Of a stretch of 64,000 bases of DNA, positions 40,610 through 62,884 are shown in pieces; within the stretch, counting starts at the first letter, position 1; the number at the start of each line of letters is the position of its first letter. Origin of the DNA: Tumebacillus sp. BK434 (GTDB lineage Bacteria > Bacillota > Bacilli > Tumebacillales > Tumebacillaceae); assembly GCF_004340785.1 (NCBI RefSeq), contig NZ_SLXS01000001.1, positions 806,001 to 870,000 on the forward strand. The letters run 5' to 3'. Position numbers and translations under genes: made by a program. Under the pieces are notes generated by a model that worked only from the letters and a program-made list of their open reading frames with translations, ran no database searches and was not told the DNA's origin.

Positions 40610-42178
40610 CTACTCCTCCTTTTCCTGCTTGCGGTTGTGCTTTTTGCTTCGCGGCGGCAGTTTCATCTCCGGGTACCATTTATTCTCTTCTTCTTCCCGC
40701 TGCTTAAACCGCTCCGCTTCCTCCGCATCGAGCACCGGATAGCCCAGGCGCTGCTGACGGCGGTTCGCCGTCGCCGCCGGAGGCAGCCAGCGCTTGCGCA
40801 CCCCGTTTGGATCGTAAAACGCATAGAACAACAGCCGATCGAGCTGGCGGTTTAGCATCCACAGCGTGACGAGCAGCATCAGCACCGAGCCGAGCAGATA
40901 GCCGGCACCCGGCGACCAGTTGTACTCGGTCGCGATCTCGCCGCCGAGGAGCAGCGACAACATGGCGATCCCGGCCGCCCACATCGCCTGTTTGCGCGCG
41001 TCGAAATACAACAGCAGCAAAAACGCCGTGATCCAGACCATATGCGGCACCGAGCCGATGATCGTCCACTGGAAGATGTCGATCACGTCCGGATAGATCT
41101 GTTTAACCTGCTGGGCGAACACCCAGGCCAGCAGCGCCACAAACGCTTGGATCTTCATCATCCGCAGCAAGGACGCTTTGGTCTCCAGCCGCAGCTCCTC
41201 TTCGAACATGCGGACGGGAGCCAACGTGTCGCCGCTTTCGATCGCATCATAAAAACGCCGGAATACTTTGTAGAAATCGGTCTCGATATTCACCGAAAAC
41301 AGCGTAAACGCCGGAATCAGCGCCAAAAACGTCCAGAACTTCGCCAGATCATACCCAGGCGACAACAGGTAGCTGCCGCCGACGATCAAGCTGTGCTCCG
41401 ACAGCCAATACATCCCGTTGTCGATCCACAAGGTCATCGCGTAACAGAAGCCGATTCCGATCAACTCCGGGTAGCGCTTGAATTGCGGCTTGACCTCATA
41501 CACCGCCGGAGTCTGGCCTGGGAAGTCGCGCACGACGACGCTGCCCAGCCAGAAAAACGCCACGCCTTGCCCGAGCGTAAACATCGCCATGACGACCGTT
41601 TCATTCGCCTGCAGTCCGTTCAGCTTCATATATACGCCGTAGATCAGCACCATCACGCCAAGCGAGGCCAGACCAAACAAAAAGCCGCGGGCGATGTCCC
41701 AATACGCTTTTGCAGCCGACAGCAGAATCATGATCAGCCCGAGCTGTGTCAGGATCACCGTCAAGAGCACCGTCCAGACCTTGTAGGCGACCGGAAGTGG
41801 TAAAAACCACTGAATCCCCGTCCCGATCAGAGTCGCCGCCAGCCCCGTGTACAGATACACGCCGGTAAAGCCGCTGAGCAGACGTTCCGGCGCTTCCACA
41901 TAGAGCGCATCGGCCAGATAGCGAGTCAAAAAGAACTGCGCCGTCGTCGAGATCAGATTGGACGTGATCATCGCATAGGTAATCGTCGCGAAAAACAGAT
42001 CGCGCTGCGCGTTTTGCAAGCCGAACGCCTTGCTCCACGACAAGAGCAAAAACAATGCGATCAGCGTCAGGAGCCACGGCCCGGCCGCCACAAAAGCGGC
42101 CGCGCCGTACACTTTCCACTTGCCGGAGCGTCCGGCGTCACCGATCGCCTTGCGCAGCGTAAAACCAATGCCCGCCAT
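40610..42178 (-). CDS. pelG: Pel exopolysaccharide membrane transporter PelG
   Basis: 522 residues with about a dozen hydrophobic segments. It opens with MAGIGFTLRK, the hallmark of PelG, a flippase-like protein of the MOP superfamily that moves the Pel polymer across the cytoplasmic membrane with PelD, PelE and PelF. A highly basic C-terminal tail of about 30 residues (ending KKHNRKQEKEE) lies in the cytoplasm. The ATG shares its A with the pelF stop (TAATG), so translation is coupled. Confidence 0.93.
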   Translation of the reverse strand: MAGIGFTLRKAIGDAGRSGKWKVYGAAAFVAAGPWLLTLIALFLLLSWSKAFGLQNAQRDLFFATITYAMITSNLISTTAQFFLTRYLADALYVEAPERLLSGFTGVYLYTGLAATLIGTGIQWFLPLPVAYKVWTVLLTVILTQLGLIMILLSAAKAYWDIARGFLFGLASLGVMVLIYGVYMKLNGLQANETVVMAMFTLGQGVAFFWLGSVVVRDFPGQTPAVYEVKPQFKRYPELIGIGFCYAMTLWIDNGMYWLSEHSLIVGGSYLLSPGYDLAKFWTFLALIPAFTLFSVNIETDFYKVFRRFYDAIESGDTLAPVRMFEEELRLETKASLLRMMKIQAFVALLAWVFAQQVKQIYPDVIDIFQWTIIGSVPHMVWITAFLLLLYFDARKQAMWAAGIAMLSLLLGGEIATEYNWSPGAGYLLGSVLMLLVTLWMLNRQLDRLLFYAFYDPNGVRKRWLPPAATANRRQQRLGYPVLDAEEAERFKQREEEENKWYPEMKLPPRSKKHNRKQEKEE

Positions 42179-43584
42179 TACGACATCACCGCCTCATCGT
42201 ACAGCTTGCGATACTCGCGCATCACCTGGCGCAGCGTGTAAAAGCGCTGCACGCGCTCCCGGCCGATCCGCCCCATCTCGCGGCGCAGCTCCGGGCCGTT
42301 CGCCAGCTTGAGCAGCGCCGCCCCCGTGTCATCGGGCGTCATCAGCTTGGTGACATACCCGCAGTCACCGAGCGTATCGCCGTCGTAGCCTTCGATCAGC
42401 TCGCGGCAGGCGCCGACATCTGTGGCGACGACCGGCAATCCTGCCGCCATCGCTTCCAGCATCACGAGCGGTTGCCCTTCGGAGATCGACGTCAGCAGAA
42501 TGCAATCCAACTGCGACAAGTACTGCAAGATATTGACCGGCCCCGTCCAGATCACCGCCGAGGCGATGCCGAGCGAGTCGATCAAGGCCAGACATTCTGC
42601 ATAATACTCCTTGTCCTCATCTTGCGGCCCGATCAGCATCAGCTTGGCGTCCGGCTTCTGGCGCAGCACGACCGCCATCGCGCGGAGCAGCGTTTTGACG
42701 TCTTTGATCGGCACCACCCGCAAGATCGCGCCGACCGTAAACGGGCGGTCTGGCGTCGGGGAGATGTCTGCAAACAAGTCGGGATTGACCCCGTTTGGGA
42801 TCAGACGCATCTTCTCCCGCTCCACGCCGTAATGCAGCTGCGCCTTCTGGTTGCCTTGCGACAGCGTGGTCACAAACTTCGCGCGTTCATATCCGGTCAG
42901 GCCGACGCGGGCGAAAAAGCGGTTCCACCAGCTCTTCAGCGGCATCGACACCCAGTCGGCGCGCACGATCTCCTCTTCGCGTTCCCGCGTGTAGATGCCG
43001 TGCTCCGTGATGATCAGCGGCAGTCCGGTCAGCCGGTTCATCACCGCGCCGTACCAGCCGGCATAGCCGGTCGAAGCTGCGTGCATCAACTGCCCCGGCG
43101 GCAGCGGCGCGCGCAAAAGGCGCAGCATCGGCAGCCACATCGACCGCCAGTTCCAGACGAAGTCGACCAGCGCAGGCGCGTTCGGCAATTCACGATACAC
43201 TTCCAGCGTTACGTCCCAGGCCCATCTTTCCTCCAGGATCGCTTCCACCGTCGGCGTGTGCCGCTTCGAGCGCACGGTGAGCAAAGTTTCCCGGCTCGGC
43301 AGTTCGCCCGTCTTGAAAAAGTGGCGCATCTCTTCGCGGTGCCGCTTCTTCCAGCGCCACAGCCCGCCGCTCACTTCGTCCTGCTCATGCAGATAGATCT
43401 CCTGCACCCCGCTGACGTTTGGCGGCAGCTCATATTTGTATTTCGCATCGGGCTGGCGGGTAGCACCGATATAGACGATAGAAAATTCGCAGTCGGAGAG
43501 CGTCCGGATCAGCTGGTGCGTCCAAGACGAAACGCCGCCCTGCACATACGGATAGGTACCTTCCAGCAGCAAGGTTACTTTCAC
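42178..43584 (-). CDS. pelF: Pel polysaccharide glycosyltransferase PelF (GT4)
   Basis: 468 residues. The N terminus LLLEGTYPYVQGGVSSW is characteristic of PelF, the cytoplasmic GT4 synthase that polymerises Pel from UDP-N-acetylhexosamine. The C-terminal half has the GT4 donor-binding elements, including TSISEGQPLVMLEAMAAGLP with its two glutamates. The start is GTG 43584, with GGAGGTG 6 nt upstream and a GTGA overlap with the deacetylase gene; a longer frame inside that gene has no support. Confidence 0.94.
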   Translation of the reverse strand: MKVTLLLEGTYPYVQGGVSSWTHQLIRTLSDCEFSIVYIGATRQPDAKYKYELPPNVSGVQEIYLHEQDEVSGGLWRWKKRHREEMRHFFKTGELPSRETLLTVRSKRHTPTVEAILEERWAWDVTLEVYRELPNAPALVDFVWNWRSMWLPMLRLLRAPLPPGQLMHAASTGYAGWYGAVMNRLTGLPLIITEHGIYTREREEEIVRADWVSMPLKSWWNRFFARVGLTGYERAKFVTTLSQGNQKAQLHYGVEREKMRLIPNGVNPDLFADISPTPDRPFTVGAILRVVPIKDVKTLLRAMAVVLRQKPDAKLMLIGPQDEDKEYYAECLALIDSLGIASAVIWTGPVNILQYLSQLDCILLTSISEGQPLVMLEAMAAGLPVVATDVGACRELIEGYDGDTLGDCGYVTKLMTPDDTGAALLKLANGPELRREMGRIGRERVQRFYTLRQVMREYRKLYDEAVMS

Positions 43585-45446
43585 TTTGCCACCTCCAGCA
43601 CCAGTTTCGGCTCGGTCGCTTCCACCCACAGCAGGCCGTACTCCTCATTGCGCGCCAGAATCTCGCCGCCGGAGACTGCCTGCCAGGCAAACGGATCGTT
43701 CACATGAACTTCCAGCACCATCGGTCCTTGCAGCGGCGATAGATAGGCGGTCAAGCGATCCTGCTCCGAGCGGTCGAATTGCACCTGTGTCGCATGGTAC
43801 ATCCGCAGCTTGTCGGACAGCTCGGTCGCCGTCAGCGGCTGCAGCCATTGGAAGCGCGAGTTCACGTCCCCGACCAGTTTGGCATAATCATCGCGCAGCT
43901 CGAGCCAGGTCTTGCCTTTGTTGCGGTCACCATGAAACACGTCGTCCGGGTGGTTGAAGTGCGAGACGATGCCGAGGTTGGCGATCGCGCTGTACAGGTC
44001 GAACTTCTCATCGTCGGTCAGCGAATAACCATAGGTGACCCGCGGCGTGCCCATGATCTGCGGAATGTCCGGGTCGGCCAAGAATTCCTGTGAGAACTCG
44101 CCGCCCTTGCCCGGTGTCGCGTACAGCGCCGAGATCGTCTTTAGCTCCGGGAAAGCATTGTACAGCTGCATCTTCCCTTCGCGGCTGAGCACGTTGGACG
44201 GCGGAATGTACATCGTCGGCAGCGGGGCTTTGATCTCCTGCTGCCAGAGCTTGCGCGCCGTCAGCAAAGCCGCGAGCATCTCCTGCTCCGACGGCCACGG
44301 TTTGTAGCCGTACAGCTGCTTTTCATAGTCGGTATAGCTCTTGCGCAGCGACAGGTGATTGTAGCCGTGCAGGCCGAGCTCACCGCCGCTTTTGACCAGC
44401 TCTACCTCGAGGTCGAACAGGTTCTCCTGCCCGTTTTCCACATACTCGAACGGCCCCTTGACCTGATCGTTGTACATGAAGATCACGCCTGCCGAGTACC
44501 GGATGCCGTATTTCTTGGCGATCTCCTGCATGTCCGGGTCCCAGCGCTTCAGCCTGAACATGTAGTCGGACATGCCGGTCGTATTGCCGGGCGAGACCAG
44601 ACCGTACGCAGGCGACGGGAAATCGTCGATGAACCAGACTTGCGCCCCGACAGACGCTTTGGCACCGCCTTGCGCTTTTAGCATCGTCTGGATGAACGCG
44701 CCGCGCATCGGGGTCTCCTGCAGCGCGGTGGTGTTCCAGTAGATCACTTTGCCTGCCCCGCGCTCGATCACCCAGAGATAGGGCACGCTCCCCTCATCGT
44801 CCGACTCTGCCCAGACCACCGCGTCATCCTCCAGCGCCGGTTGCAGCGTGAGCGATGACGATGTGAGCTTGTCGCCGCTCAGCGTCACTTCCGACAGCCC
44901 GGGATAGATGTTCGTCTCAGCCCAATGCAATCCGATCGGCGGTTGCACCGCAAACTTCGGCGTCCCTTCGATTCCGAAAAAGGGGTTCAGCGGCGAGCGG
45001 GGGCTGCGCAGTGCGTTGATCAGCAGGCCGCCCTGCTCGGTCACATATTTTTGCAGCAGGTCCTGATGGGGCAGTTCTTCCTGCCGCTCTCCGACGATCA
45101 CCACCGCGCCTTGCTGATAGCGGGCGAGCGGCGTGTTCAGCTTCTTGTATTCGGCAAATGACATCACATCATAAGGAAGCTTGGCGTAGCGCAGCGCCAT
45201 CGACAGGTTGTCAACTGTCGCCAACACTTCCGGGATGTCGCCTCTTTCATGGTACAAGATCAGATAGCGCTGATGCGGCGCATCGGGAAACTCCGTGCGC
45301 TTGACTTCGTCAAACGTCAGCAGCGGCTCAAAGCGCCGGTCATCGGCCACCCATTCCTGCACGCGGGGTGGCACGGTCACCGCCACGACCGTCAACAGCA
45401 CCGTATAAATGGCGATGCGAAAAAGGGGCAGCTTGCGTTTTCTCAT
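43581..45446 (-). CDS. PelA-type polysaccharide deacetylase (DUF2194), membrane anchored
   Basis: 621 residues. One N-terminal membrane segment (about 8-26) puts the rest outside the cell. A glutamine-amidotransferase-like region precedes a carbohydrate-esterase fold: WFIDDFPSP near 270 supplies the metal-binding aspartate pair and HGYNH near 357 the histidine pair. In Pel systems the deacetylase removes acetyl groups to make the polymer cationic. No glycoside hydrolase domain is attached, as in the deacetylase-only PelA of Gram-positive pel operons. ATG 45446 overlaps the pelE stop (ATGA). Confidence 0.85.
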   Translation of the reverse strand: MRKRKLPLFRIAIYTVLLTVVAVTVPPRVQEWVADDRRFEPLLTFDEVKRTEFPDAPHQRYLILYHERGDIPEVLATVDNLSMALRYAKLPYDVMSFAEYKKLNTPLARYQQGAVVIVGERQEELPHQDLLQKYVTEQGGLLINALRSPRSPLNPFFGIEGTPKFAVQPPIGLHWAETNIYPGLSEVTLSGDKLTSSSLTLQPALEDDAVVWAESDDEGSVPYLWVIERGAGKVIYWNTTALQETPMRGAFIQTMLKAQGGAKASVGAQVWFIDDFPSPAYGLVSPGNTTGMSDYMFRLKRWDPDMQEIAKKYGIRYSAGVIFMYNDQVKGPFEYVENGQENLFDLEVELVKSGGELGLHGYNHLSLRKSYTDYEKQLYGYKPWPSEQEMLAALLTARKLWQQEIKAPLPTMYIPPSNVLSREGKMQLYNAFPELKTISALYATPGKGGEFSQEFLADPDIPQIMGTPRVTYGYSLTDDEKFDLYSAIANLGIVSHFNHPDDVFHGDRNKGKTWLELRDDYAKLVGDVNSRFQWLQPLTATELSDKLRMYHATQVQFDRSEQDRLTAYLSPLQGPMVLEVHVNDPFAWQAVSGGEILARNEEYGLLWVEATEPKLVLEVAK

Positions 45447-46483
45447 GCCTGTTCCTCTCCCCCTTTCCACAGCTGGATCAAACCGCGCACCGCTTCCGGC
45501 AGGTTCTGCCCGTCAGACACCCGCTCAGCCAACTCCGCCAAGCGCTGCTGATCGTTGCGTTCAAAGGCGATCTGCATCAACACGCCAATCGCGCGGTCAG
45601 CATGCGCGCCGCCGCTTTTTTCATACCACAGGACGGCCAGTTGCTCCGCCTCGTCATAGCGGCCGAGTTGGAACAGAGTCTGCGCCTGCTCCACCCCGGC
45701 CGTCGGCTGATCGGGCTCCAGGCGCAGCGACTGGTCCAGGACGGCCAGCCGCTTGTCCAGATAAAAGCGGGACAGCTCCGCCCCGGCGATCCCTTCCTCG
45801 ATGATCTGCCCGTACTCGCCGGCGAGCTGGTTCCAGAGCTCTACATCATCCGGCTTGTACTCCAGCTCGCTCTCCAGCTTGCGGATTTGCAGCGAATGCA
45901 CCGCTTCAGCGCGAGAAAGCAACGAGGCTCCGTAGTAGCGCACTTCCGGGTCAGCATCATCGAGCGCCTTGCGCACGACCGGCACCTGAATGCCCGACTG
46001 CATCGACTGCGCCTGCAAGAGCACACTTTTTTTGCGCTGCGGATCGCCGCCTTCCAGCACGTCGATCATCGGCACGACATCCAAGACACCGCCCCAGTCG
46101 ATCGGCGAGCGGTACACGTCTTGCGCCACCGGCACGTCCTGCCAGGCGCCTTGCACCTTTGTCACCCGCGTCGACCAATAAGCTGCCATCAAACCGCCGA
46201 TTCCCGGCATCAAAAAGCAGGTCAGCGCCGTCAGCGCTTGCCGGGAGCTCCACGGGCGCAGCGAAGAGATCGGCTGCGCGAAGTGTGCGAACAGCAAAGC
46301 CAGCCCGCCGCGCACGAGGAGCAGCCAGACAGCCCCTTGCAAAGCCAGGATAAACAACACGACATCCAGCACGCCAAACAGGGCAAACAGCACGATGGAG
46401 CGCTGATGACGAGCGTCGCTCCCCCGCTCTTTGCCTGTTTGCTTGCTGTATTTCACCTTGCGGGACTGAAGTTCTGCTTTCAT
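45443..46483 (-). CDS. pelE: Pel biosynthesis membrane/TPR protein PelE
   Basis: 346 residues. Three hydrophobic segments (about 30-110; IVLFALFGVLDVVLFILAL and following) precede a soluble helical-repeat region with an alanine-rich, TPR-like pattern (ADPEVRYYGASLLSRAEAV; QTLFQLGRYDEAEQLAV). PelE helps assemble the PelD-PelE-PelG membrane complex that holds PelF. The basic cytoplasmic N terminus precedes the first membrane helix. Its ATG overlaps the pelD stop by one base (TGATG). The family is divergent, so the call rests on architecture and position between pelD and the deacetylase. Confidence 0.85.
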   Translation of the reverse strand: MKAELQSRKVKYSKQTGKERGSDARHQRSIVLFALFGVLDVVLFILALQGAVWLLLVRGGLALLFAHFAQPISSLRPWSSRQALTALTCFLMPGIGGLMAAYWSTRVTKVQGAWQDVPVAQDVYRSPIDWGGVLDVVPMIDVLEGGDPQRKKSVLLQAQSMQSGIQVPVVRKALDDADPEVRYYGASLLSRAEAVHSLQIRKLESELEYKPDDVELWNQLAGEYGQIIEEGIAGAELSRFYLDKRLAVLDQSLRLEPDQPTAGVEQAQTLFQLGRYDEAEQLAVLWYEKSGGAHADRAIGVLMQIAFERNDQQRLAELAERVSDGQNLPEAVRGLIQLWKGGEEQA

Positions 46484-47778
46484 CAGGCTTCTACCCGCAT
46501 TTCCGTTCGAATTTCACACTCGTTGTGCAAGACGCGCGTGTCGAGCACTTGGAAGTCATCGCTCGCCAGCCGCTCCCAGACCCGCTGCGCCACCCCGCTC
46601 GCATCCTGATGATCAAGGGTCGGGAACAGCAACATCAGCCGATTGCTCTCCGGCTCCCACGTCGCCATGTCGAACGTGCGCATCTTGCCGCGCAGCAGCT
46701 CGCTCAGCGCGCCGGGCACGTCTTCATCGCGCAGCACGGTGTGCAGCGTCGCTTCGAGGATCGTGTACGGGATGCCGTAGCGGACATAGCGGTCATGCTC
46801 CAGCCCGCACTGCTCATGAAAATACGGCGCGCGCAGGAAGCGCGAATTCGGATAGGTCGCGTCATTCAGCAGCGCCGCTTCAAAGGCGGTCGCCCGCTCC
46901 AGCGACGCGGAGGCCCATTTGGCCAGCACTTCGAGCAGTTGCGTCGTGTCGGCCGTCACTTTGGCGAGCGGCAGACGGTGGATGGCGATCAAAGCGTAGG
47001 TGCGATTCTGCCGGAAGATCGGCACCATGTAGATCGGTGCCGGGCGCTCCGTGGCATCTTTGAACGTCAGCACTTTGCCCTGCTCGATCGCCTTTTTGAC
47101 CAGTTCGTGCGTGTCGATCGTCACCGAGTTCGACCACGTCGGCTGCCCGACGCGCACGGCGAGGCGTGCAAAGCGGTTGCTCTCTTCCACGCGGTAGATG
47201 CTCGCCTGCTCGACTTGCAGCAGGTCTTCCAGCACGCCGAGCAGCTCGGTCAAGATCTTTTCAACCGACAGCACGTTCAAGCTCTGGGCGATCTGATACA
47301 GGCGTGTCATCGTCGCCGTCTGCCCGAGCACCCGCCCCTGCAATTCGAACAGGGCCGTTTCCGCCTGCTGCAGGCGGCTTCGCGCTTCGCTCGCTTCCTG
47401 TTGCATCAGCGACGCCTGATCGCGCAGTCGCTGCATCCGGCGCTCCAGCGTCGTGCGCAGCTCCCCGAACACGTAGCCTGCGACCAACAGAAACATCGGA
47501 GTCAGATAGTGAGACGGGTCGGCGATGATAAACGTCCACAGCGCGTTGAAGGGGAACGCGGTTGTCGTGGTAAGCATCGCCAAATACAGCACCGAGGAGA
47601 GCAGTCCCGAAAACAGCCCGATCACAGGACCGGCCACCCATGCACCGTAGATCACCAAGAGAAAAAACGGAGAGGGGTTCACATTTAACAATGTCGAAGC
47701 GGGGAAAAAGCCAACGATAAGTCCTAACCCGATAATTACTTCGAGGAGTCCTGTCAGCTTCCGACGAAACGATATCAT
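46483..47778 (-). CDS. pelD: c-di-GMP receptor PelD (GAF plus degenerate GGDEF)
   Basis: 431 residues: four N-terminal membrane helices (about 1-100), a coiled coil (about 105-150), a GAF domain and a C-terminal degenerate GGDEF domain. In place of GGDEF is WEPES, so it cannot make c-di-GMP. The inhibitory-site motif RxxD is kept as R-T-F-D (Arg367 and Asp370 counted from ATG 47778), consistent with binding c-di-GMP to switch on polymer synthesis. ATG 47778 has AGGAGG 7 nt upstream, preferred over the longer TTG start. It heads the pelD-E-A-F-G operon. Confidence 0.92.
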   Translation of the reverse strand: MISFRRKLTGLLEVIIGLGLIVGFFPASTLLNVNPSPFFLLVIYGAWVAGPVIGLFSGLLSSVLYLAMLTTTTAFPFNALWTFIIADPSHYLTPMFLLVAGYVFGELRTTLERRMQRLRDQASLMQQEASEARSRLQQAETALFELQGRVLGQTATMTRLYQIAQSLNVLSVEKILTELLGVLEDLLQVEQASIYRVEESNRFARLAVRVGQPTWSNSVTIDTHELVKKAIEQGKVLTFKDATERPAPIYMVPIFRQNRTYALIAIHRLPLAKVTADTTQLLEVLAKWASASLERATAFEAALLNDATYPNSRFLRAPYFHEQCGLEHDRYVRYGIPYTILEATLHTVLRDEDVPGALSELLRGKMRTFDMATWEPESNRLMLLFPTLDHQDASGVAQRVWERLASDDFQVLDTRVLHNECEIRTEMRVEA

Positions 47779-47841
47779 CTTTTGACCTCCTGAAGTCAAT
47801 GCCTTTATCTCAACTGACGCTTTTCTCTGCTGTTAGTCAGA

Positions 47842-48066: not shown

Positions 48067-48497
48067 TGCTTGCCTCCCATTTCATAGCGCTCTCCGTTCA
48101 GTTCATAGGAGGCCGTCAAGGTCGCGTTTAGCGACGCAGAAGCGGAGCAGTACTTCTCGTTGGAGAGCACGATCGCCCGCTCGACTTTGTCCGGGGTCAG
48201 ATCCGGACCTTTCAGAATGTAATGGATATGTATGTCGGTGAAGCGCTGCGGCATTTCCTCCGCTCTCGTCCCGGACAGCTCCATGCGGAACTCTTCCAGC
48301 GTGAGACGGCCCTTTTCCAAGATCATCGCCACGTCGATGCCCGAGCAGCCGCCCAGACCCATCAAGAGCAGTTCCATCGGGCGCGCGCCGGTATCCTCGC
48401 CGCCGACATCCGCCTTTGCGTCCATCGTGATATGATGGCCGGAATTGCCCACCGCATCAAATTTGCGTTTGCCCTTCCAGTCAATGCTTACGTTCAC
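48063..48497 (-). CDS. OsmC/Ohr family peroxiredoxin-like protein
   Basis: 144 residues with the OsmC fold. The two redox cysteines are visible in GLGGCSGIDV and in NEKYCSASASL; family members reduce organic hydroperoxides with thiols. The start GTG 48497 (VNVSIDWKGKRKF) is chosen because the fold begins there and AAGGA lies 9 nt upstream; longer frames read into the DUF2663 gene. It overlaps that gene by 17 nt and the zinc-ribbon gene by 4 nt. Confidence 0.9.
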   Translation of the reverse strand: MNVSIDWKGKRKFDAVGNSGHHITMDAKADVGGEDTGARPMELLLMGLGGCSGIDVAMILEKGRLTLEEFRMELSGTRAEEMPQRFTDIHIHYILKGPDLTPDKVERAIVLSNEKYCSASASLNATLTASYELNGERYEMGGKQ

Positions 48498-48948
48498 TGT
48501 GCTCCATCCTTTCCATTGCGGGATGGGGCCATGCCCCAATACTTTCCTCTTCCAATTGTACAGCACCGCCCGCATTTTGGGAACGTTCTTTCATGATCTC
48601 GTCCACAAGCCAGAGGTCGAGGTGCACCCGTCCCTTTTGCCGGAAGTGATGGTTGATCGACCAGACGATGACGAGGATCGACGCGACCGCCACGATCATC
48701 CAGCGCAGCGAATCGTGTGGAAAATACTTGTTGACCTGCGCGCCGAAGATCAGAAAGACGATCGGCATCGTCGACGCGAGCAGCGGAATGTTGCCGAGCA
48801 TGTGCCGGCGGCGGTTCAGCTCCGCACGGATCAGCCAGAGCTCCTTCTTGCTCTTCGCCCGGTAATAGTGGCACAGTTCCTTCACGATCCCCTCATGCGC
48901 CCGGAAATAGCCGTCCAAGACTTTGGGTCTCGTCTCCGTGCTTTTCAA
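48481..48948 (-). CDS. DUF2663-like two-helix membrane protein
   Basis: 155 residues with two adjacent membrane helices (about 52-72 and 82-100: IPLLASTMPIVFLIFGA; WMIVAVASILVIVWSI) between charged cytoplasmic ends. The arrangement and length resemble the DUF2663/YpbF group of Bacillales; function is unknown and the family call is tentative. It starts with TTG 48948 behind a GGAAGGAG site, and is the first gene of a three-gene overlapping set (this, OsmC, zinc ribbon). Confidence 0.65.
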   Translation of the reverse strand: MKSTETRPKVLDGYFRAHEGIVKELCHYYRAKSKKELWLIRAELNRRRHMLGNIPLLASTMPIVFLIFGAQVNKYFPHDSLRWMIVAVASILVIVWSINHHFRQKGRVHLDLWLVDEIMKERSQNAGGAVQLEEESIGAWPHPAMERMEHSERKH

Positions 48949-49474: not shown

Positions 49475-52400
49475 TTAGAGGTCAAAATCATCATGCGGAA
49501 GTTCCCAATAGCAGACGACGCGGTCTTTGCCAAAACGCTTGGCAAACGTCTCCGCCTGATCCGCTTTGTCAAACAGGTCGGTCGCATCTTGCGGCTGGTC
49601 CATATCATACGAGGAGACACCGATCGAGGCGGTGATCTGATAGCGGTCGCCTTCGATCGGAATGTTGCGCAGGTTGTTCAGCACCCGCTCTGCGACGATG
49701 CGCGCCGCCGTGCCGTTCGTATTCGGCAGGATGACGATCAGTTCTTCCCCGCCGAAGCGCCCGACGATGTCGACATTGCGCACCGAGCGCTGCAAAGTCT
49801 TCGCCACCGTGCGCAAGGCGCGGTCCCCTTCGTTGTGCCCGAAGCGGTTGTTGATCGACGAGAAATTGTCGAGGTCGATCATCAGGAAGGAGAGGTCGAT
49901 GCCGTAGCGCTTGACTTTGCTGAACTCTTCGGTCAGTCGCTTCATGAAGTAATTGCGCTGGTACAGGCCGGTCAGGTTGTCGGTGATCATCACTTCGTAC
50001 ATGATCGCGTTCTCGACGTTGGACGAGACCAGTTGTGCAAACGAGTTGATGAAGCGTTTGTCGCGCAGGGAGAACGGTGTTTGCAGGCTCAGTTTTTCCA
50101 GCACCATCACCGCGATCACCTGCTGGTCATGCGAGAACACCGGCAGGCCGTAGAGGTACGACGTGCGCCCTTCAGACTCCATCGCCTTCTCCTGTCCAAC
50201 GACGCTCGCGATCATCTCGTCAACTTCCAGATTGGTCGTCGGCACCGCTTGTAGCTGCTCGTTCAGATGGATCAATTCCACCCGCTCCGGCGCCAGTTTC
50301 ACCAACAGGTGAATGTTGTCGAAGAGCAGGTTCTCGAAGATGACGGCGGCGAGGTTCTCACAGACCGTCTTCACCATGATCGAGGAAGAGACGCGGCGGA
50401 TCGCGTCGAGCAGAATCTCATTGTCGGTCAGCGTGTCGATCAGCTCTTGGCGCTCCTCGACCATCCGGCTCGACCAGGTGCGCAGCTTCGAACCGTTCGC
50501 TTCGACTCTGTGCACCAGCCGCGGCGCCGCTTCGATGACGACATTCTTCATCTCGTCGATCGCTTCGTTCGCCTGCGAGACCAGCTCCTGGTTGGTCTGG
50601 CGCATCAGCTGGTCGATCTTCCCGAGACGCGCCTGCTGGTTGAGCTTGCGATAGCCCATCAGCGCGCGCTTGTAGTTGAGGTTGGCTTCTACAAACTGGC
50701 GCGTCTGCTGGTACAAGCGGCCGAGGTAGTAATGCGCCTGAGCCAGATACCCGATGTAGCCGGTGTTGTGGATCAGTTTTTGCACCGCCAGCGCCGCTTG
50801 CAGGCCTTCTTCATTCCGGCCCGACTCCCGGCAGGCCACAGTCAGCATCAGATAGCGCTCGATCCGCACTTCGGTCGCCACATCCTGCTCCTGCACCAGT
50901 TGTCTAAACTCGGAGATGATCTCCTCGTAGCGCTCATGCATCAGGTAGTAGCTTCCGCGCAGCAATTGATGCTCCTCGCCAAAATCACGGCTTTGGCAGA
51001 TCTGTTCGACCATCGGCCACATCCGCTCGCAGCGCTTCCGCTTGCCGAGGGCGAGCGATGTGCGGAAGCGGTAGAGGAAGGCGTGGTCGCGCATCAGTTT
51101 GCGCCCTTGCTTCTTCGCCGTCTTGATCAGCGTGTCGATGACGCGGTCCGCCTTTTCGAACTCTTCGATGAACAGGAAGTGTTCGATCTCATTGCACAAG
51201 AGCGCCGTATCTTCGCCCGAGAATACCGCCTGGCAGGTCTCGCGGGCTTTCTCGATATAGCGCTGCGCATGGTACATGTCGCCCAGCAAGCGGTAGATCT
51301 CGACGAGGTTGATGTAGGCGATCGCCTCTTTCATCCGGTTGCCGAGGTCGGCCGCGAGGTTGGCCGATTGCAGGTAATAGTCTTTCGCCCGCAGCGGATC
51401 GGTCTTCTGGAAGCCGATCGCCATGCAGTTGTAGATGCCGATCAGCGCCTGGCGGTTGTTCGCATGCTCCGCCAGCGAGGCCGCTTCGTGCAGGTAATGC
51501 GAACTTTCCTCAAACGACACGCCCGGCACGCTCATCAAGAGCACCTGCAGGTTGTAAAGCCAGGACACGTAGTGGCGGCTCTTCAGCGTTTCGCGCAGGC
51601 GCTGCCCGTGCTCCTGCTGATAGCGCTCCATGGCGTGGATGTGCTCGTAGTCGCCGTCCGCCTCCAGGTAATACATGGCGATGGCGACCATCGCATAGAG
51701 CTTGTCCTGCTCGGAGACGTGGTCGGTCTGAATCTGCTCTTCCAGATACGCCAAGTGCGGCTTGATCGCCTGGAAGTTCCCCATGTTGACATAGACCAGC
51801 AGCAAGGAGATCAGCACGTGCGTCGATCCGGTGCGCTCGTACAGCGCGGTCATCACCCCGGTCGCATCGTCGAGCAGCCCGAGCAGGCGCAAGATGCGCG
51901 CGCGGAACGTGATCAGGGAATTCGGGCATTTGCGCAGCGGAACGTGCTCATACAGCTCGATCGCCTTTTTGATCTGCAGATCCGCTTCCGCAAACAAACC
52001 GCGGCGGTACCAGCGGCGTCCCCCGATAATGTTCAGGTAGATCGCCTGCTCCCACTCGTGCCCCGCTTCGAAGTGGTACGCCACTTCCATATAGGACGTG
52101 GAACCGACGTCGAGCAGGCAGGCCGCGAGCGTGCGGTGCATCTGCAAGCGCTTCTCCGGCGAAATCGTCTGGAAGATGTGGTCTTTGATGTTGTTCGAAG
52201 TAAAGCCGTACAAGTTGTGCATCTGCCAGACCAAGCCCTGCTCCTCCAGTTGGCGCAGCACCGGCAGCAAGTCTTGCGGCTTGTCGTAGCCGCAGGCTCT
52301 GGCCGCCGCTTCGACGATCATCGAGCCTTTGAACAGCGACAGCACCTGGCAGACCTCTTTGGCGTGCGGCGGCAGCGACTGCAGGCGGAAGAGAATCAAC

Positions 52401-54058
52401 GATTCCATCCCTTGCGGAATCTCGAACTTCTCCACCGATTCCGGCACCATGTGCCAGACATAGCGCTCCTGATAGATCTGCTTGGTGTCGGCAAGATATT
52501 CGATCAGCTGGAACACCTGCTCCAGCGACCCCCGGCCGTGATAGTTCAGCCACTGGATAAACTCATCGCTCAGGAAATCGGCGCTGCCAAAGCGCGAGCG
52601 CACCGCCTCCCGCATCATGTCGAGCGGCAGCGGCTCCAGATGCAGATGCTCTTGGAACAGCGCCGTCAGCTGCGGTTGCGGCGCATCGGTCACACCGACA
52701 AACCCGAGGGCCAGCGTCTCTTGCCCGAGCAGCTTTTTGAAAAATTGCAGCGATTCCGCGTCGAGCAGGTGCGCATCGTACAGTTCGAACACCATCGGTT
52801 CGCCGTAGGTCTCTAAAATTTCTGAGAAAAAGTCGAACAGCAAGTTCTCCGGCTCCTGATGCTTCGGCAGCGCCATCGGCTCGGCGGTGAGCATATCGCG
52901 ATACTCGAACGCCACGCGCGGCAACACGCCGCTGAGCAGGTTCACGTACACGCGCCCCAGGCGCTCCAGCTTCGGCACGGCAAAGCAGAGCAGGAACAGC
53001 TTCATGACGAGCAGTTCCACGGCGCCAAACGGCGTTTCCCGGACGGTCGCCGAAATGACGGACACGTTGTGCATATAGCGCCCGGAGACTTCATAGATCA
53101 GGCGCTTGCGGCCGACACCGGTCTGGCCGGTGATCAGCATCGAATTGCGGGTGAACTGCATCATCCGCTCATAGAAGTTGGACAAGGTCTCCACTTCCTG
53201 CTCGCGGCCGGTAAACTCCGCCGAGAACAGGTATTGCGATCCGTACGTTGGCAGGTCCGCCTTGCAGCCCCCGTCGTGGCTGCCCAAGGTGCGCGTCAGT
53301 TCGTCGATGATCTGGCCGACCCACTGAAAGCGTTTGCTTGGCTTGCGGTTGATCATCTTCAGCACCAGGCGGTCGAGGTGCGGCGGTACGTGTTCGTTAT
53401 AGCGCGACGGCGGGTGCAGCGCACCATCGCCATCTGCCGTAAACGGGAAGTTCCCGGTCAGCACGAGATAAAACAGCACGCCGAGGTTGTAGATGTCGGT
53501 CCGCGCATCGAGCGGGCTCATCGTCATCGTCTCCGGCGCAAAATACTGCAGCGCATCGTCCGGCCCGCAGGCGTTGTACAGCGACAACGGCGCATCGGTC
53601 AGCATCGTCAACAGGCGCACCGAACCGTCCGGCTGCACCAGCACGTAATCGGGCGCGATCCCGCCGTGCCACATCGTCCGTCCATGCAGCTCGGCAATCG
53701 CCGTGCACAGTTCCTTGAGCACCTCGAGCACCGCCGTCAGCGGCTTGCCTTCCGCATAGGAAAGCAGCGTCTGTTCCCCTTCCTGCCAATCATAGACGAC
53801 ATAGCTTGCGCCTTCTGCGGAGAAGACGTCGCGCACCCGTGCCATCGGGAGACCTGCTTCCTGAAACAAACGGGCGCGCAGCGCGATCTGGTCATGACCA
53901 AGGAAAGACACCACATGAGGTGCCAGGCGCACGAGCTGAACTTTTTCATTTGTCGATTGATCCCAACCTGCCAAGTGCTCCCCAAAATAGGGGTTCGCGC
54001 CGATTTGCTCCACGATGGCAAAGCGGCCGTTCACCTTCGTCTGCAGGGTCTCCGTCAT
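49475..54058 (-). CDS. Giant pseudokinase-ATPase-repeat-GAF-GGDEF diguanylate cyclase
   Basis: 1527 residues in one frame. Residues 1-265 have a protein-kinase fold with the APE and DIYNLGVLFYLVLTG landmarks, but the catalytic loop reads HGGIAPDY instead of HRDLKPxN and no DFG is present, so it is a pseudokinase. An AAA/STAND-like region follows, with a degenerate P-loop GQTGVGRKR near 308. About 600-1150 is helical, TPR-like repeat. A GAF-like domain precedes the C-terminal GGDEF domain (DNLTGLYQRNYF near 1358). The signature is GGEEL near 1433 with an upstream inhibitory RxxD (R-N-V-D); GGEE is compatible with activity. It probably makes c-di-GMP in response to ligand or partner binding, and PelD encoded 1.7 kb away is a natural target. 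ATG 54058 is used; its ribosome-binding site is weak. Confidence 0.9.
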   Translation of the reverse strand: MTETLQTKVNGRFAIVEQIGANPYFGEHLAGWDQSTNEKVQLVRLAPHVVSFLGHDQIALRARLFQEAGLPMARVRDVFSAEGASYVVYDWQEGEQTLLSYAEGKPLTAVLEVLKELCTAIAELHGRTMWHGGIAPDYVLVQPDGSVRLLTMLTDAPLSLYNACGPDDALQYFAPETMTMSPLDARTDIYNLGVLFYLVLTGNFPFTADGDGALHPPSRYNEHVPPHLDRLVLKMINRKPSKRFQWVGQIIDELTRTLGSHDGGCKADLPTYGSQYLFSAEFTGREQEVETLSNFYERMMQFTRNSMLITGQTGVGRKRLIYEVSGRYMHNVSVISATVRETPFGAVELLVMKLFLLCFAVPKLERLGRVYVNLLSGVLPRVAFEYRDMLTAEPMALPKHQEPENLLFDFFSEILETYGEPMVFELYDAHLLDAESLQFFKKLLGQETLALGFVGVTDAPQPQLTALFQEHLHLEPLPLDMMREAVRSRFGSADFLSDEFIQWLNYHGRGSLEQVFQLIEYLADTKQIYQERYVWHMVPESVEKFEIPQGMESLILFRLQSLPPHAKEVCQVLSLFKGSMIVEAAARACGYDKPQDLLPVLRQLEEQGLVWQMHNLYGFTSNNIKDHIFQTISPEKRLQMHRTLAACLLDVGSTSYMEVAYHFEAGHEWEQAIYLNIIGGRRWYRRGLFAEADLQIKKAIELYEHVPLRKCPNSLITFRARILRLLGLLDDATGVMTALYERTGSTHVLISLLLVYVNMGNFQAIKPHLAYLEEQIQTDHVSEQDKLYAMVAIAMYYLEADGDYEHIHAMERYQQEHGQRLRETLKSRHYVSWLYNLQVLLMSVPGVSFEESSHYLHEAASLAEHANNRQALIGIYNCMAIGFQKTDPLRAKDYYLQSANLAADLGNRMKEAIAYINLVEIYRLLGDMYHAQRYIEKARETCQAVFSGEDTALLCNEIEHFLFIEEFEKADRVIDTLIKTAKKQGRKLMRDHAFLYRFRTSLALGKRKRCERMWPMVEQICQSRDFGEEHQLLRGSYYLMHERYEEIISEFRQLVQEQDVATEVRIERYLMLTVACRESGRNEEGLQAALAVQKLIHNTGYIGYLAQAHYYLGRLYQQTRQFVEANLNYKRALMGYRKLNQQARLGKIDQLMRQTNQELVSQANEAIDEMKNVVIEAAPRLVHRVEANGSKLRTWSSRMVEERQELIDTLTDNEILLDAIRRVSSSIMVKTVCENLAAVIFENLLFDNIHLLVKLAPERVELIHLNEQLQAVPTTNLEVDEMIASVVGQEKAMESEGRTSYLYGLPVFSHDQQVIAVMVLEKLSLQTPFSLRDKRFINSFAQLVSSNVENAIMYEVMITDNLTGLYQRNYFMKRLTEEFSKVKRYGIDLSFLMIDLDNFSSINNRFGHNEGDRALRTVAKTLQRSVRNVDIVGRFGGEELIVILPNTNGTAARIVAERVLNNLRNIPIEGDRYQITASIGVSSYDMDQPQDATDLFDKADQAETFAKRFGKDRVVCYWELPHDDFDL

Positions 54059-54294: not shown

Positions 54295-54633
54295 ATGAGC
54301 TTACGTGGTATCGGTATCGTACTTGTTCTGTTCGTATTGGGCGTCGCCTTCAGCGGCTTCGCATCTTATTCCGCAGACACCTTCCAGCACAAGGAAGAAA
54401 AAGCAATTGACGCTGAAAAGCTCGTGATGCAAAACTGCGCTTCTTGCCATGGCAAGGACCTGAAGGGCACCGATCTGGCTCCGAGCCTGCACGAAAAAGG
54501 TCAGAAGCTGTCCGCTGAAACGATCCAACAGATCATCACTGATGGTGTTTCGCCGAACATGCCGGGCGGCCTCCTGAAAGACCATAAAGAAATTAGTGCA
54601 GTAGCCAATTACATTACCAATCTCGACAAATAA
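54295..54633 (+). CDS. Membrane-anchored class I c-type cytochrome
   Basis: 112 residues. An uncleaved N-terminal membrane helix (about 5-24) anchors a small haem domain outside the membrane. The haem-binding motif is CASCH near residue 48, and the Met ligand is in NMPGG. It resembles the c550/c551 cytochromes of Bacillales, which pass electrons between the bc complex and terminal oxidase. ATG 54295 has AAAGGAG upstream. It is monocistronic and followed by its own terminator. Confidence 0.93.
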   Translation: MSLRGIGIVLVLFVLGVAFSGFASYSADTFQHKEEKAIDAEKLVMQNCASCHGKDLKGTDLAPSLHEKGQKLSAETIQQIITDGVSPNMPGGLLKDHKEISAVANYITNLDK

Positions 54634-54642
54634 GCGAACAAT

Positions 54643-54675
54643 AGGATTCTTGCGCACTGCGCACGAATCCTTTTT
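54643..54675 (+). terminator. Terminator of the cytochrome c gene
   Basis: AGGATTC (54643-54649) and GAATCCT (54665-54671) form the stem, with further GCGC pairing in the loop, followed by a run of T residues on the plus strand. Confidence 0.8.
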
Positions 54676-54708
54676 GTTTGACTGTGCACGCAAGCCGCTC
54701 AAGATGGG

Positions 54709-54741
54709 AAAAAGGACTGCCCGCAAGGGTCAGTCCTTTTT
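54709..54741. terminator. Second strong hairpin terminator
   Basis: AAAAAGGACTG (54709-54719) and CAGTCCTTTTT (54731-54741) form an 11-bp stem. CCC/GGG closes a GCAA tetraloop at the tip. It works on either strand and would stop minus-strand read-through from cheR. Confidence 0.8.
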
Positions 54742-55072: not shown

Positions 55073-55852
55073 CTATTGACGCTGATAGAAGAAAGTGTCG
55101 TAAGTCGTAAATCGAAAAGACTGCGGGTTAAATATCTGTTCCGTACTGCCTACAAACAGCACGCCGCCGGGACGCAGCGCATTTGAAAATTTATGATACA
55201 AAATGTCTTTGGCGTCTTCGGTGAAGTAGATGATCACGTTGCGGCAGACGATCAGATCAAAATCGGAGTCGAACGGATCTTCGAGCAAGTTGTGTTTCTT
55301 GAAAGTCACACATTTTTTGACGTCATCCGACACGGCAAACAGGTGGTGCGGTGTCTTCGTGAAATATTTTCGCTTATACTCTTCCGGCACAAAGTGCAGG
55401 GAGCGTTCCGAGTACAGGCCCTGTTTGGCCTTGCTCAGAGCATTTTCATCAAGGTCGGTGGCGAGAATCTGGATGTCGGACAGCGGCATGAATTTGCTGA
55501 GCAGCATGACCAGCGTGTACGGCTCCTCTCCGGTCGAGCAGGCGGCGCTCCAGATTTTCAAGCGGCGTTTGCCGGCCAACATCTCCGGGACCACCCGGTC
55601 GCGCACCACGTCCCAGCGGTTCGGGTTGCGGAAGAACTCCGACACGTTGATCGTCATGCGGTCGAGAAACTCGGCGAACATCTTGTCGTCTTTCTTCAGC
55701 CCGTCAAAATAGGACATAAAATCACGAAAGCCCCGCTTGTCACGCAGCGCAGTCAAGCGCCGCTGCATCTGGGGACGTTTATATTTGCGTAAGTCGATCC
55801 TCGTGTATTTGAAGATGCTTTCCATAAACAGATCAAAATCATCAATCGGCAA
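55073..55852 (-). CDS. cheR: Chemotaxis protein methyltransferase CheR
   Basis: About 259 residues. An N-terminal helical domain (residues 1-70) precedes an SAM-dependent methyltransferase domain with AACSTGEEPY (SAM loop), ILATDLDENAL and DLIVCRNVIIYF. CheR methylates glutamates on chemoreceptors to reset signalling. The start is taken as TTG 55852 (PIDDFDLFMES), because AAGGAGGT lies 7 nt upstream; the longer GTG frame would contain that site. In Bacillus cheR follows ndk; here a phospholipase gene on the other strand lies between them. Confidence 0.92.
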   Translation of the reverse strand: MPIDDFDLFMESIFKYTRIDLRKYKRPQMQRRLTALRDKRGFRDFMSYFDGLKKDDKMFAEFLDRMTINVSEFFRNPNRWDVVRDRVVPEMLAGKRRLKIWSAACSTGEEPYTLVMLLSKFMPLSDIQILATDLDENALSKAKQGLYSERSLHFVPEEYKRKYFTKTPHHLFAVSDDVKKCVTFKKHNLLEDPFDSDFDLIVCRNVIIYFTEDAKDILYHKFSNALRPGGVLFVGSTEQIFNPQSFRFTTYDTFFYQRQ

Positions 55853-55953
55853 AGCGGGTACCTCCTTAGTTCCATCTGATGCCACGCTTACCTATTCGTC
55901 CAGCAAAGTCGAAAGTCCTGCCTCCATCCGCTTGCCGCAAGGGAGGAATTTGC

Positions 55954-57450: not shown

Positions 57451-57479
57451 CGAACGCGATCAATTAATGATCGCGTTCG
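57451..57479 (-). promoter_or_regulatory. 12-bp stem-loop with the hepT stop codon in its loop
   Basis: CGAACGCGATCA (57451-57462) and TGATCGCGTTCG (57468-57479) are perfect inverse complements, and the hepT stop (57464-57466) lies in the 5-nt loop. No T run follows, so it is not a standard terminator; it could protect the 3' end or slow ribosomes or polymerase. Confidence 0.5.
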
Positions 57480-58429
57480 TTGATGAAATGAGCGATGCCT
57501 TCCAGCTTTGAGCGGGCGTCCTTGTCCGGAAGCTGCTGCAGAGCGTGCAAGCATTTCTCCATATAGCGGTCGGCCATCCGACGGGCATATTCGATGCCGC
57601 CCGAGGCCTTGACGATCTTCACCGCTTCTTCCACTTCCGCCGCTGTCATGTCGCGGCCGATCAACTGGCGCAGACGCAGTGCATCGCGCGAATTTTGCAG
57701 CGCAAACAGCACAGGAAGCGTCAAATTGCCTTGGCGAAGGTCGGAGCCGACCGGCTTGCCAAGCTTTTTCGGAGTCGAGGTCAGGTCGAGAATGTCATCG
57801 ATGATCTGAAACGCCATCCCGGCATAGTAGCCGTAGCGCTCCAAGAGCCGCACTTCACGCGGCGTACATTCGGCGACCATGGCGCCCAAGGTGCAGGAGA
57901 TCGACAGCAGGAGCGCCGTCTTGCGCTTGATGCGGCGCAGATAGGTGCGCAAGGTCTGCTCCTTGTTGTAGAAATCGCGAATCTGCTCGATCTCCCCTTC
58001 ACACATGGCGACGATCGACTCCGAAAGAAGTTGATGGATTCGAACATCCGAGAACTCGGCGAGCATGACGAGCGCCCGAGCAAAGATGTAGTCGCCGGTG
58101 TACATCGCCATCCGGTCGCCCCATTCCGACTTGACGGTGGGCGTGCCGCGCCGCGTGGCGGCATCGTCGATCACGTCATCGTGAACGAGAGAGGCCATGT
58201 GAATCAGCTCAAGCGCGGCGGCGACCCGGGTCAGCTGGGCGGCATCATAGCGGCCAAACTTCCCGGCGAGCAAGACGAAGATAGGACGAATCCGCTTCCC
58301 GCCTGCTTTCAACAGATGAGAAGATGCTTTCTTCAGGTTGTACTGGGAAGTGTGCACCTCGTCAAGAAGCCGACGCTCCACCATGTCAAGATCCGATTTG
58401 AGCGAAAAATAGATGTCCATCAACTTCAT
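57464..58429 (-). CDS. hepT: Heptaprenyl diphosphate synthase component II (HepT)
   Basis: 321 residues, an all-helical trans-polyprenyl synthase. The first aspartate motif DDVIDDAATRRG and the second, IIDDILDLTSTPKKLGKPVGSDLRQG, bind the Mg-diphosphate substrates. With the small subunit HepS it elongates farnesyl diphosphate to the menaquinone side chain. It starts 12 nt after mqnC, with AAGGTGG overlapping the mqnC stop. Chain length cannot be fixed from sequence. Confidence 0.95.
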   Translation of the reverse strand: MKLMDIYFSLKSDLDMVERRLLDEVHTSQYNLKKASSHLLKAGGKRIRPIFVLLAGKFGRYDAAQLTRVAAALELIHMASLVHDDVIDDAATRRGTPTVKSEWGDRMAMYTGDYIFARALVMLAEFSDVRIHQLLSESIVAMCEGEIEQIRDFYNKEQTLRTYLRRIKRKTALLLSISCTLGAMVAECTPREVRLLERYGYYAGMAFQIIDDILDLTSTPKKLGKPVGSDLRQGNLTLPVLFALQNSRDALRLRQLIGRDMTAAEVEEAVKIVKASGGIEYARRMADRYMEKCLHALQQLPDKDARSKLEGIAHFINERDH

Positions 58430-58441
58430 TCAAAATCCACC

Positions 58442-59530
58442 TTAGAAAATGTTCAGAATGTTGTATTGCGTGTCGCGCTGTGCCGGGATGCGACCTGCAT
58501 CGCGGATCAAGCGGATCAGTTTTTCCTTGTCACTGCGGTTGTGCGCGCCGGCTGCCGAGACGACGTTTTCCTCGATCATCGTCGAGCCCATGTCATTGCA
58601 GCCAAATTCCAGCGCCAACTGCCCGATCTTGTCGCCCATCGTCACCCAGGAGGACTGGAAGTTGCGCACGTTGTCGACCATCAGGCGGGAGATCGCCAGG
58701 TTCTTGAGGTACTCCGCCGCCGTCGCGCGGGTGCCTTTGAGCGCGGTGTTGTCCGGCTGGTACACCCAGGAGATAAAGGCGGTGAAACGACCGGTCTTAT
58801 CCTGCTGTTCACGCACGCGGATGAAGTGCAGCAGACGCTCTTCGATCGATTCGCCAAAGCCGATGACCATCGTCGCCGTCGTGTTCATCCCGTGGCGCTG
58901 TGCCGCATCATGGACATCCATCCACTTCGTCCACGATTCTTTCAGCTTGGAGATGCGCATGCGGGTTCTGTCATCGAGGATCTCCGCGCCGCCGCCCGGC
59001 AGCGAGTCGAGTCCCGCCGCTTTCAGTTGCACGATCACTTCATCGAGCGGCAAGCCGGACACTTCGACCATCTTCAAGATCTCGGCCGACGAGAAGGAGT
59101 GCATGGTGATGTCAAAACGCGACTTGATCTTCTTCAGCAGGTCGAGGTAGTACGAGAACGGCAGGTTCGGGTTGGTGCCGCCCTGCATCAGGATCTCCGT
59201 GCCGCCGAGGTCGATCGTCTCCTGAATTTTATCAAAAATCACTTCATCCGACAAAACGTACGCGTCCGCATCTTTCGCCGTGCGGTAGAAAGCGCAGAAA
59301 CGGCAGTAGGTGTCGCAGATGTTCGTGTAGTTGATGTTGCGGTTGATGACAAACGTGCCCAGGTTGTCCGGGACATGCTTTTGCGTGATCTTCTTCGCTG
59401 CTGCGCCAAGTTTGGTCAGGTCGTTCGACTCGTACAAGATCGTGCCTTCTTCGAGCGACAGGCGTTCGCCTTGCAGTGCCTTGTCCAGCACCTCATCCAC
59501 CTTGGTCGTCTTCGTGTTCACAAAACTCAT
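58442..59530 (-). CDS. mqnC: Cyclic dehypoxanthine futalosine synthase MqnC
   Basis: 362 residues, a radical SAM enzyme with the cluster motif CDTYCRFC (CxxxCxxC) near residue 70. It cyclises dehypoxanthine futalosine in the futalosine route to menaquinone. LPGGGAEILDD and SWVYQPDNT are shared with the MqnC/MqnE/CofH family, and the family assignment rests on these plus position. Its ATG overlaps the mqnA stop (ATGA). Confidence 0.94.
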   Translation of the reverse strand: MSFVNTKTTKVDEVLDKALQGERLSLEEGTILYESNDLTKLGAAAKKITQKHVPDNLGTFVINRNINYTNICDTYCRFCAFYRTAKDADAYVLSDEVIFDKIQETIDLGGTEILMQGGTNPNLPFSYYLDLLKKIKSRFDITMHSFSSAEILKMVEVSGLPLDEVIVQLKAAGLDSLPGGGAEILDDRTRMRISKLKESWTKWMDVHDAAQRHGMNTTATMVIGFGESIEERLLHFIRVREQQDKTGRFTAFISWVYQPDNTALKGTRATAAEYLKNLAISRLMVDNVRNFQSSWVTMGDKIGQLALEFGCNDMGSTMIEENVVSAAGAHNRSDKEKLIRLIRDAGRIPAQRDTQYNILNIF

Positions 59531-61520: not shown

Positions 61521-61535
61521 AGTACTTCCCCCCGT

Positions 61536-62874: not shown

Positions 62875-62884
62875 TGAATTCCCC

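Follow-up and report, generated by a model that had tools for sequence, protein, structure and literature searches.

A 64,000-nucleotide stretch of DNA from Tumebacillus sp. BK434 (hereafter, the window) encodes on its minus strand a protein of 1527 residues which, on balance, we favour reading as a large one-component protein, probably cytosolic, of signalling by the biofilm signal c-di-GMP, with a dead input platform and a cyclase end. The gene is more than a chance reading frame, because full-length matches occur in all seven family genomes and dN/dS lies at 0.00-0.14 everywhere along the protein.

Results

Two upstream enzyme domains have lost their signature residues

The gene is a single frame that runs from an ATG at 54058 to a stop ending at 49475 without an internal stop, with the extent and length that an earlier note on this DNA had given (Table 1). 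The domain search proposed in that note yielded matches above the Pfam cut-offs for Pkinase (36.5 bits versus 31.7), AAA_16 (34.8 versus 32.6), which identifies an NTPase domain by profile, and GGDEF (PF00990; 139.4 versus 23.8). Its labels pseudokinase, STAND and GGDEF were thereby borne out, whereas its TPR and GAF labels drew only sub-threshold matches (TPR_2, 23.1 versus 27; TPR_12, 20.9 versus 30.1; GAF_3, 17.9 versus 27). GAF also stayed below the cut-off in two relatives tested (best 21.5 bits, in L011), and we regard both labels as plausible but weak. Pfam gave no match to EAL and, at E 0.01, none to a HisKA/HATPase output, in whose place the GGDEF domain stands. There is no obvious membrane anchor, because the 19-residue window of highest hydrophobicity (mean 2.03, residues 343-362) falls within the AAA_16 match.

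Table 1. Features of the 1527-residue protein gene and of its surroundings (window coordinates).
Feature	Position	Strand	Remarks
Whole gene: pseudokinase, pseudo-STAND, helical middle, GAF-like, GGDEF	49475..54058	-	1527 aa; 7/7 family genomes
Pseudokinase	53273..54058	-	residues 1-262; Pfam and alignments; PknB-like fold of model
Pseudo-STAND NTPase	52379..53236	-	residues 275-560; AAA_16 match and alignments
Middle region, TPR-like	50489..52378	-	residues 561-1190; sub-threshold TPR_2 and TPR_12
Hinge	50309..50488	-	residues 1191-1250; 44/60 invariant in 7 sequences; helical in low-confidence model
GAF-like part	49991..50308	-	residues 1251-1356; sub-cut-off GAF_3 and model
GGDEF domain	49514..49990	-	residues 1357-1515; GGEEL 1436-1440; I-site RNVD 1427-1430
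Conserved gene next downstream, for a small protein with hydrophobic stretches	48481..48948	-	7/7 genomes
Small c-type cytochrome, divergent neighbour	54295..54633	+	7/7 genomes
CheR methyltransferase, conserved neighbour	55073..55885	-	7/7 genomes
pel operon	40610..47799	-	4/7 family genomes
PelD	46483-47799	-	presumptive label, from position and domains
PelE	45443-46483	-	presumptive label, from position and domains
PelA (DUF2194)	43581-45470	-	presumptive label, from position and domains
PelF	42178-43629	-	named model
PelG	40610-42178	-	named model

A structure model of residues 1-560, built on 17 rows, had a mean pLDDT of 75.4 and a pTM of 0.48; in a fold search PknB-type kinase structures matched it first, and the best 50 rows were kinase entries. 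The model of residues 1150-1527 (15 rows; mean pLDDT 75.9, pTM 0.54) was confident for the GGDEF domain, which matched 3ign with a TM by target of 0.92, less certain for the GAF-like fold, and of low confidence for the hinge helices ahead of it.

In alignments of the seven family sequences, none retained the VAIK Lys, the HRD Asp or the DFG of an active Hanks-type kinase. The VAIK Lys is replaced by R44 and the catalytic-loop Asn by Y/H138 in 7/7, DFG is absent from all seven, and HRD reads H131-G-G/A, with G/A133 at the Asp position. The earlier note had read HGG for HRD; within the family, HGG occurs in four sequences and HGA in three. Likewise, no sequence keeps GxxxxGK[ST] or both Walker B acids of a STAND NTPase. 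Walker A is GxxGxGRKR in 7/7 (Lys to R317, Ser/Thr to K318), so that the reported loss of the P-loop Lys and Ser/Thr is directly visible, and Walker B is hhhhY[DN] in 7/7, its first Asp being Y427. With these losses fixed in 7/7, the note's picture of a dead-enzyme scaffold joined to a cyclase-type output is well supported at the sequence level. Motif loss alone is no proof that either domain has lost nucleotide binding.

The GGDEF domain keeps its signature and I-site but not all catalytic positions

GGEEL and the RxxD site, both noted earlier, are indeed kept: the signature is GGEEL in five family sequences and GGEEM in two, and the R and D of the I-site are invariant in 7/7. Measured against the PleD residues D327, K332, N335, D344, D370, K442 and R446, as listed in the available text of PMC6629876, the family keeps five of seven positions in every sequence (D1395, N1403, D1412, E1438 and K1507), PleD numbers being assigned by motif order rather than by structure superposition. 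K332 is replaced by S1400 and R446, conservatively, by K1511; the ND motif has become NN1404, all in 7/7. Among eight comparison GGDEF domains, seven from the same genome and one from P0002 (a protein of another family of the class), K332 and the D of ND were present in 8/8 and R446 in 7/8, the eighth having Lys.

Because K332 is lost and R446 altered in 7/7, c-di-GMP synthesis is less secure than the earlier note had stated; what speaks for it is the retention of GGEEL, of the metal and base residues and of the K442 equivalent. Judged by its residues, the domain is likely, not assured, to have cyclase activity: it would be a working, perhaps slower, cyclase, and catalysis may also be weak or absent. 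Hypr (cGAMP-making) GGDEF domains carry Ser or Thr at the PleD D344 position; such a specificity change was ruled out, since the equivalent residue is D1412 in 7/7.

Alternatively, the GGDEF domain could be impaired as well, the whole protein being a scaffold that binds c-di-GMP at the I-site and relays this to a partner in the manner of PelD or BcsE. We consider this a lesser but real possibility. Every nucleotide site of the protein is altered, the three GGDEF changes (K332 to S, R446 to K, ND to NN) being fixed in 7/7, and the invariance of I-site R and D in 7/7 contrasts with their joint retention in only one of four intact GGDEF-bearing relatives on the same chassis (see Discussion). Thus the family has one trait of PelD/BcsE-type receptors, an intact RxxD I-site, without the other, a degenerate signature: in the PelD and BcsE domains the GGDEF signature itself diverges (available text of PMC7439463), whereas here GGEE[LM] and the metal, base and K442-equivalent residues stay in place. 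The strong constraint on the GGDEF domain fits catalysis equally.

The pel operon is an inherited neighbour

Whole-genome searches of 61 relatives' genomes (E 1e-60), of 14 genomes of the order (1e-50) and of 398 class genomes (1e-55) each returned the same seven genomes, the source genome and six others, which make up the whole family sample examined. The six other copies are full-length and 58-91% identical to the source protein. A named-genome scan gave four loci, all in Tumebacillus (T. avium, T. lacus, T. flagellatus and T. permanentifrigoris). The N-terminal profile alone matched 17 of 398 class genomes at 1e-20; the 10 genomes outside the family had the kinase only or, in one case, the kinase and the start of the NTPase. 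A search of plasmids at E 1e-30 drew no match, and plasmid carriage was rejected.

Locus order is alike in 7/7: menaquinone genes, patatin, CheR, cytochrome c, the 1527-residue protein gene and the small conserved gene, on whose product Pfam placed nothing over cut-off, followed by OsmC (6/7) and RluD (7/7). The block of menaquinone-type genes (57464-63775, minus), which are presumably MqnE, MqnA, MqnC, UbiX, UbiE, HepS and HepT, adjoins the locus in all seven genomes. A 141-residue minus-strand ORF (54301-54726) was discarded as a conserved neighbour; it overlaps the cytochrome c gene and is probably its reverse reading. T. lacus (G005) has ~7 kb inserted between the 1527-residue protein gene and the small conserved gene, including an ORF of 1884 residues (G005:C1 563310-568964). 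Elsewhere in the window (2741-35752, minus) lie four adjacent ORFs of 1785, 3414, 2152 and 3476 residues, the size of peptide or polyketide synthases. Rfam gave no match at gathering score over the 64-kb window, and hence no c-di-GMP riboswitch link. Beside the gene, scans for promoters and terminators showed no clear excess over shuffled sequence; a terminator-like site follows the stop, one of three such sites against a shuffle mean of 2.1 (sd 1.6).

The gene lies upstream of pelD and on its strand, with 1.7 kb between its end and pelD, which confirms the nearness to pel, the genes of the Pel sugar polymer, pointed out earlier; an OsmC gene and a gene for a small probable membrane protein lie between. 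(The names PelD, PelE and PelA are presumptive.) From this position the earlier note had suggested a dedicated local activator of the operon, and had offered co-occurrence and synteny with pel in relatives as a check. The check went against it. PelG was found by whole-genome search in four of the seven family genomes, and PF16933 exceeded its cut-off in 4/7, with one weaker match in G004, on another contig (23.8 bits versus 29). In 4/7 genomes pel lies between OsmC and RluD, and all pel-bearing family genomes (4/4) have it in this same interval; in 3/7 it is missing from there, PelD, PelE, PelA and PelF having been sought in these three near the locus only. The 1527-residue protein gene is kept in all seven. 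Constraint on its GGDEF domain does not slacken where pel is missing: dN/dS was 0.031 and 0.048 in comparisons among pel-less genomes and 0.037-0.057 among pel-bearing ones.

In a tree of one gene, MqnE, for which three genomes of the order served as outgroup, the pel-bearing T. lacus groups with the three pel-less genomes (97/96); an unrooted tree of the cyclase also sets these three apart from the rest, T. lacus being flagged as a long branch. Apparently, pel was lost in three of the seven genomes, and one loss explains the pattern. Since the MqnE tree implies a single loss, the adjacency is one inherited arrangement rather than a repeated association. The T. lacus pel locus (L023) has two adjacent PelA-like ORFs (G005:C1 554471-556318, judged by eye, and 556372-558213), against one in the window.

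A dedicated pel activator is therefore unlikely, and the link is mostly one of inherited neighbourhood. What remains in its favour, besides strand, distance and the shared interval, is PelD itself. A sequence comparison of PelD with the PDB gave no useful match, but its R374, D377 and R406 share the +32 spacing (R374 to R406) of R363, D366 and R395 in the published B. cereus protein, as given in the available text; as this spacing is kept, Pel of the source genome is probably activated, and in this sense controlled, by c-di-GMP. A DGC/PDE gene is also reported inside bifidobacterial pel loci (available text of PMC7112168). Against it stand, in addition to the pel-less genomes and the inherited adjacency, the intervening genes, the terminator-like site after the stop (no commoner than in shuffles) and the 15 GGDEF matches in 13 frames of the source genome, the 1527-residue protein included, so that other cyclases could feed PelD.

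All domains are under purifying selection

We estimated dN/dS by the Nei-Gojobori method for five genome pairs; dS exceeded 1 in several cells, and the values are rough. They were 0.063-0.128 for the pseudokinase, 0.073-0.080 for the pseudo-STAND domain, 0.069-0.144 for the middle region, 0.00-0.053 for the hinge, 0.030-0.110 for the GAF-like part and 0.031-0.057 for the GGDEF domain. Every domain is thus under purifying selection, strongest on hinge and GGDEF (0.00-0.06, versus 0.06-0.13 on the dead domains), and no domain's dN/dS suggests decay. Invariant positions in the seven sequences numbered 44/60 in the hinge, 110/159 in the GGDEF domain and 109/262 in the pseudokinase. That the protein is a decaying remnant, an old dual sensor that is losing function while its GGDEF end alone is still used, is highly improbable: missing active-site residues in two domains and low Pfam scores for kinase and AAA_16 would fit it, but dN/dS of 0.06-0.14 over pseudokinase, pseudo-STAND and middle region in five pairs, a frame open in 7/7 and the many invariant pseudokinase residues largely refute it.

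Discussion

We propose that the protein derives from a kinase-STAND-TPR-GAF chassis that is widespread and usually ends in a histidine kinase, an output here exchanged for GGDEF. Its kinase and NTPase would no longer bind or turn over ATP normally; their folds may persist as an input platform, sensing a ligand or partner protein through its shape. A change of shape would be relayed along the helical middle and the nearly invariant hinge into the GAF-GGDEF end, where two GGEEL domains could pair and make c-di-GMP, with feedback at the I-site limiting output. The general role in these bacteria would be to supply c-di-GMP to the common pool, Pel being one target at most; we prefer this to a role confined to pel because the gene is kept and constrained in genomes without pel.

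A more speculative extension, which we consider rather unlikely, is that all three modules that handle nucleotides (kinase, STAND NTPase and GGDEF) have swapped the Lys that grips phosphate (R44, R317 and S1400) and that selection holds these swaps across the family. The protein would then handle c-di-GMP allosterically and independently of ATP, as a low-gain cyclase or as a scaffold reading c-di-GMP; the basic RKR patch, invariant in the dead P-loop, and the pocket of the dead kinase might have been reused for a ligand that is not ATP.

Proteins of the kinase-STAND-GAF type are found repeatedly in Bacillota. For the control that the upstream enzymes of such proteins exert on the output, a conserved chain in which both upstream active sites are lost offers a natural test of the need for ATP turnover, with relatives that are intact and share the GGDEF output as a comparison. 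The locus also counsels caution in inferring function from gene neighbourhood: the pel adjacency was inherited, and the 1527-residue protein gene outlives pel.

How the protein differs from others on its chassis is seen in 20 long relatives, a non-random sample (19 from one match list, one from the N-terminal-profile search) drawn among the matches listed, with the long frames G676, G585 and G762 left out. At E 1e-5, AAA_16 was found in 20/20, GAF in 19, Pkinase in 18, HATPase_c in 14 and GGDEF in one, the kinase counts being rough, as the choice of first ATG may shorten the kinase end in several. GxxxxGK[ST] and the Walker B DD are kept in all 20, the HxD aspartate in only six by alignment (shortened starts may hide some). 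On these counts (6/20 versus 20/20) a worn kinase is common on the chassis, and a worn P-loop is found only in the 1527-residue family among those compared; pseudokinases seem common on kinase-STAND chassis, judging from the alignments. L092-L094, L097, L098, L101-L105 and L107, from other Bacillota, lack the HxD Asp and keep the P-loop.

Counterparts with the same output come from other Bacillota. P0002 (locus L109, from another family of the class) scores 106 bits for Pkinase and 133 bits for AAA_16, passes the GAF cut-off and carries GGDEF; a search with it matched 34 of 398 phylum genomes at 1e-100, with 20 loci among the matches listed. Six of these were inspected by motif pattern: L132, L129 and L131 end in GGEEF, one is L032:467-5812, and two have none of the three output motifs sought. 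P0002, L132, L129 and L131, all from other Bacillota, share the kinase-AAA_16-GGDEF order and GGDEF output of the 1527-residue protein, GAF being confirmed by Pfam for P0002 only. Unlike it, all four retain the Lys and HKD of the kinase, Walker A and B, K332 and R446, and they are only 14-21% identical to it in kinase, STAND and middle regions. L032:467-5812, from the source genome (G000:C1 about 154466-159811), has the same Pkinase-AAA_16-GAF-cyclase plan; it differs in its intact kinase and P-loop and in its output, a class III cyclase (Guanylate_cyc). A nearby ORF, L032:6635-7777, appears by eye to combine GAF with HD-GYP.

Outside this chassis, Rv3910 (MviN) is a membrane protein of cell-wall synthesis. 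Its intracellular domain (PDB 3otv), which we take to be a pseudokinase, has the kinase fold and ranked 35 in our fold search; Rv3910 is without a cyclase, whereas our protein ends in GGDEF. CdgF of B. cereus is, like the presumed cyclase here, a c-di-GMP enzyme of a pel-bearing Gram-positive, but the earlier note's analogy to it is loose: CdgF is predicted to combine GGDEF and EAL, and no adjacency to pel is stated in the available text of PMC7112168, whereas the 1527-residue protein has no EAL match and occurs also without pel. HstK-type dual kinases, according to the available text of PMC1262709, also join a Ser/Thr kinase and GAF in one long chain; their output is a histidine kinase, in contrast to a GGDEF output behind a dead kinase. 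Described in the same source is an 1826-residue Clostridium thermocellum protein, reported in 2005, which combines an N-terminal kinase, six TPRs and a C-terminal GGDEF at similar size. Titles and abstract beginnings in the open-licence literature yielded no report of a pseudokinase-GGDEF cyclase fusion, of c-di-GMP in Tumebacillus or of the 1527-residue protein, which does not imply absence from print. Fusion of a kinase to GGDEF is thus already known, because P0002, L132, L129, L131 and the C. thermocellum protein exist; what sets the 1527-residue family apart is that, within a single chain, all nucleotide sites are altered and the alterations conserved.
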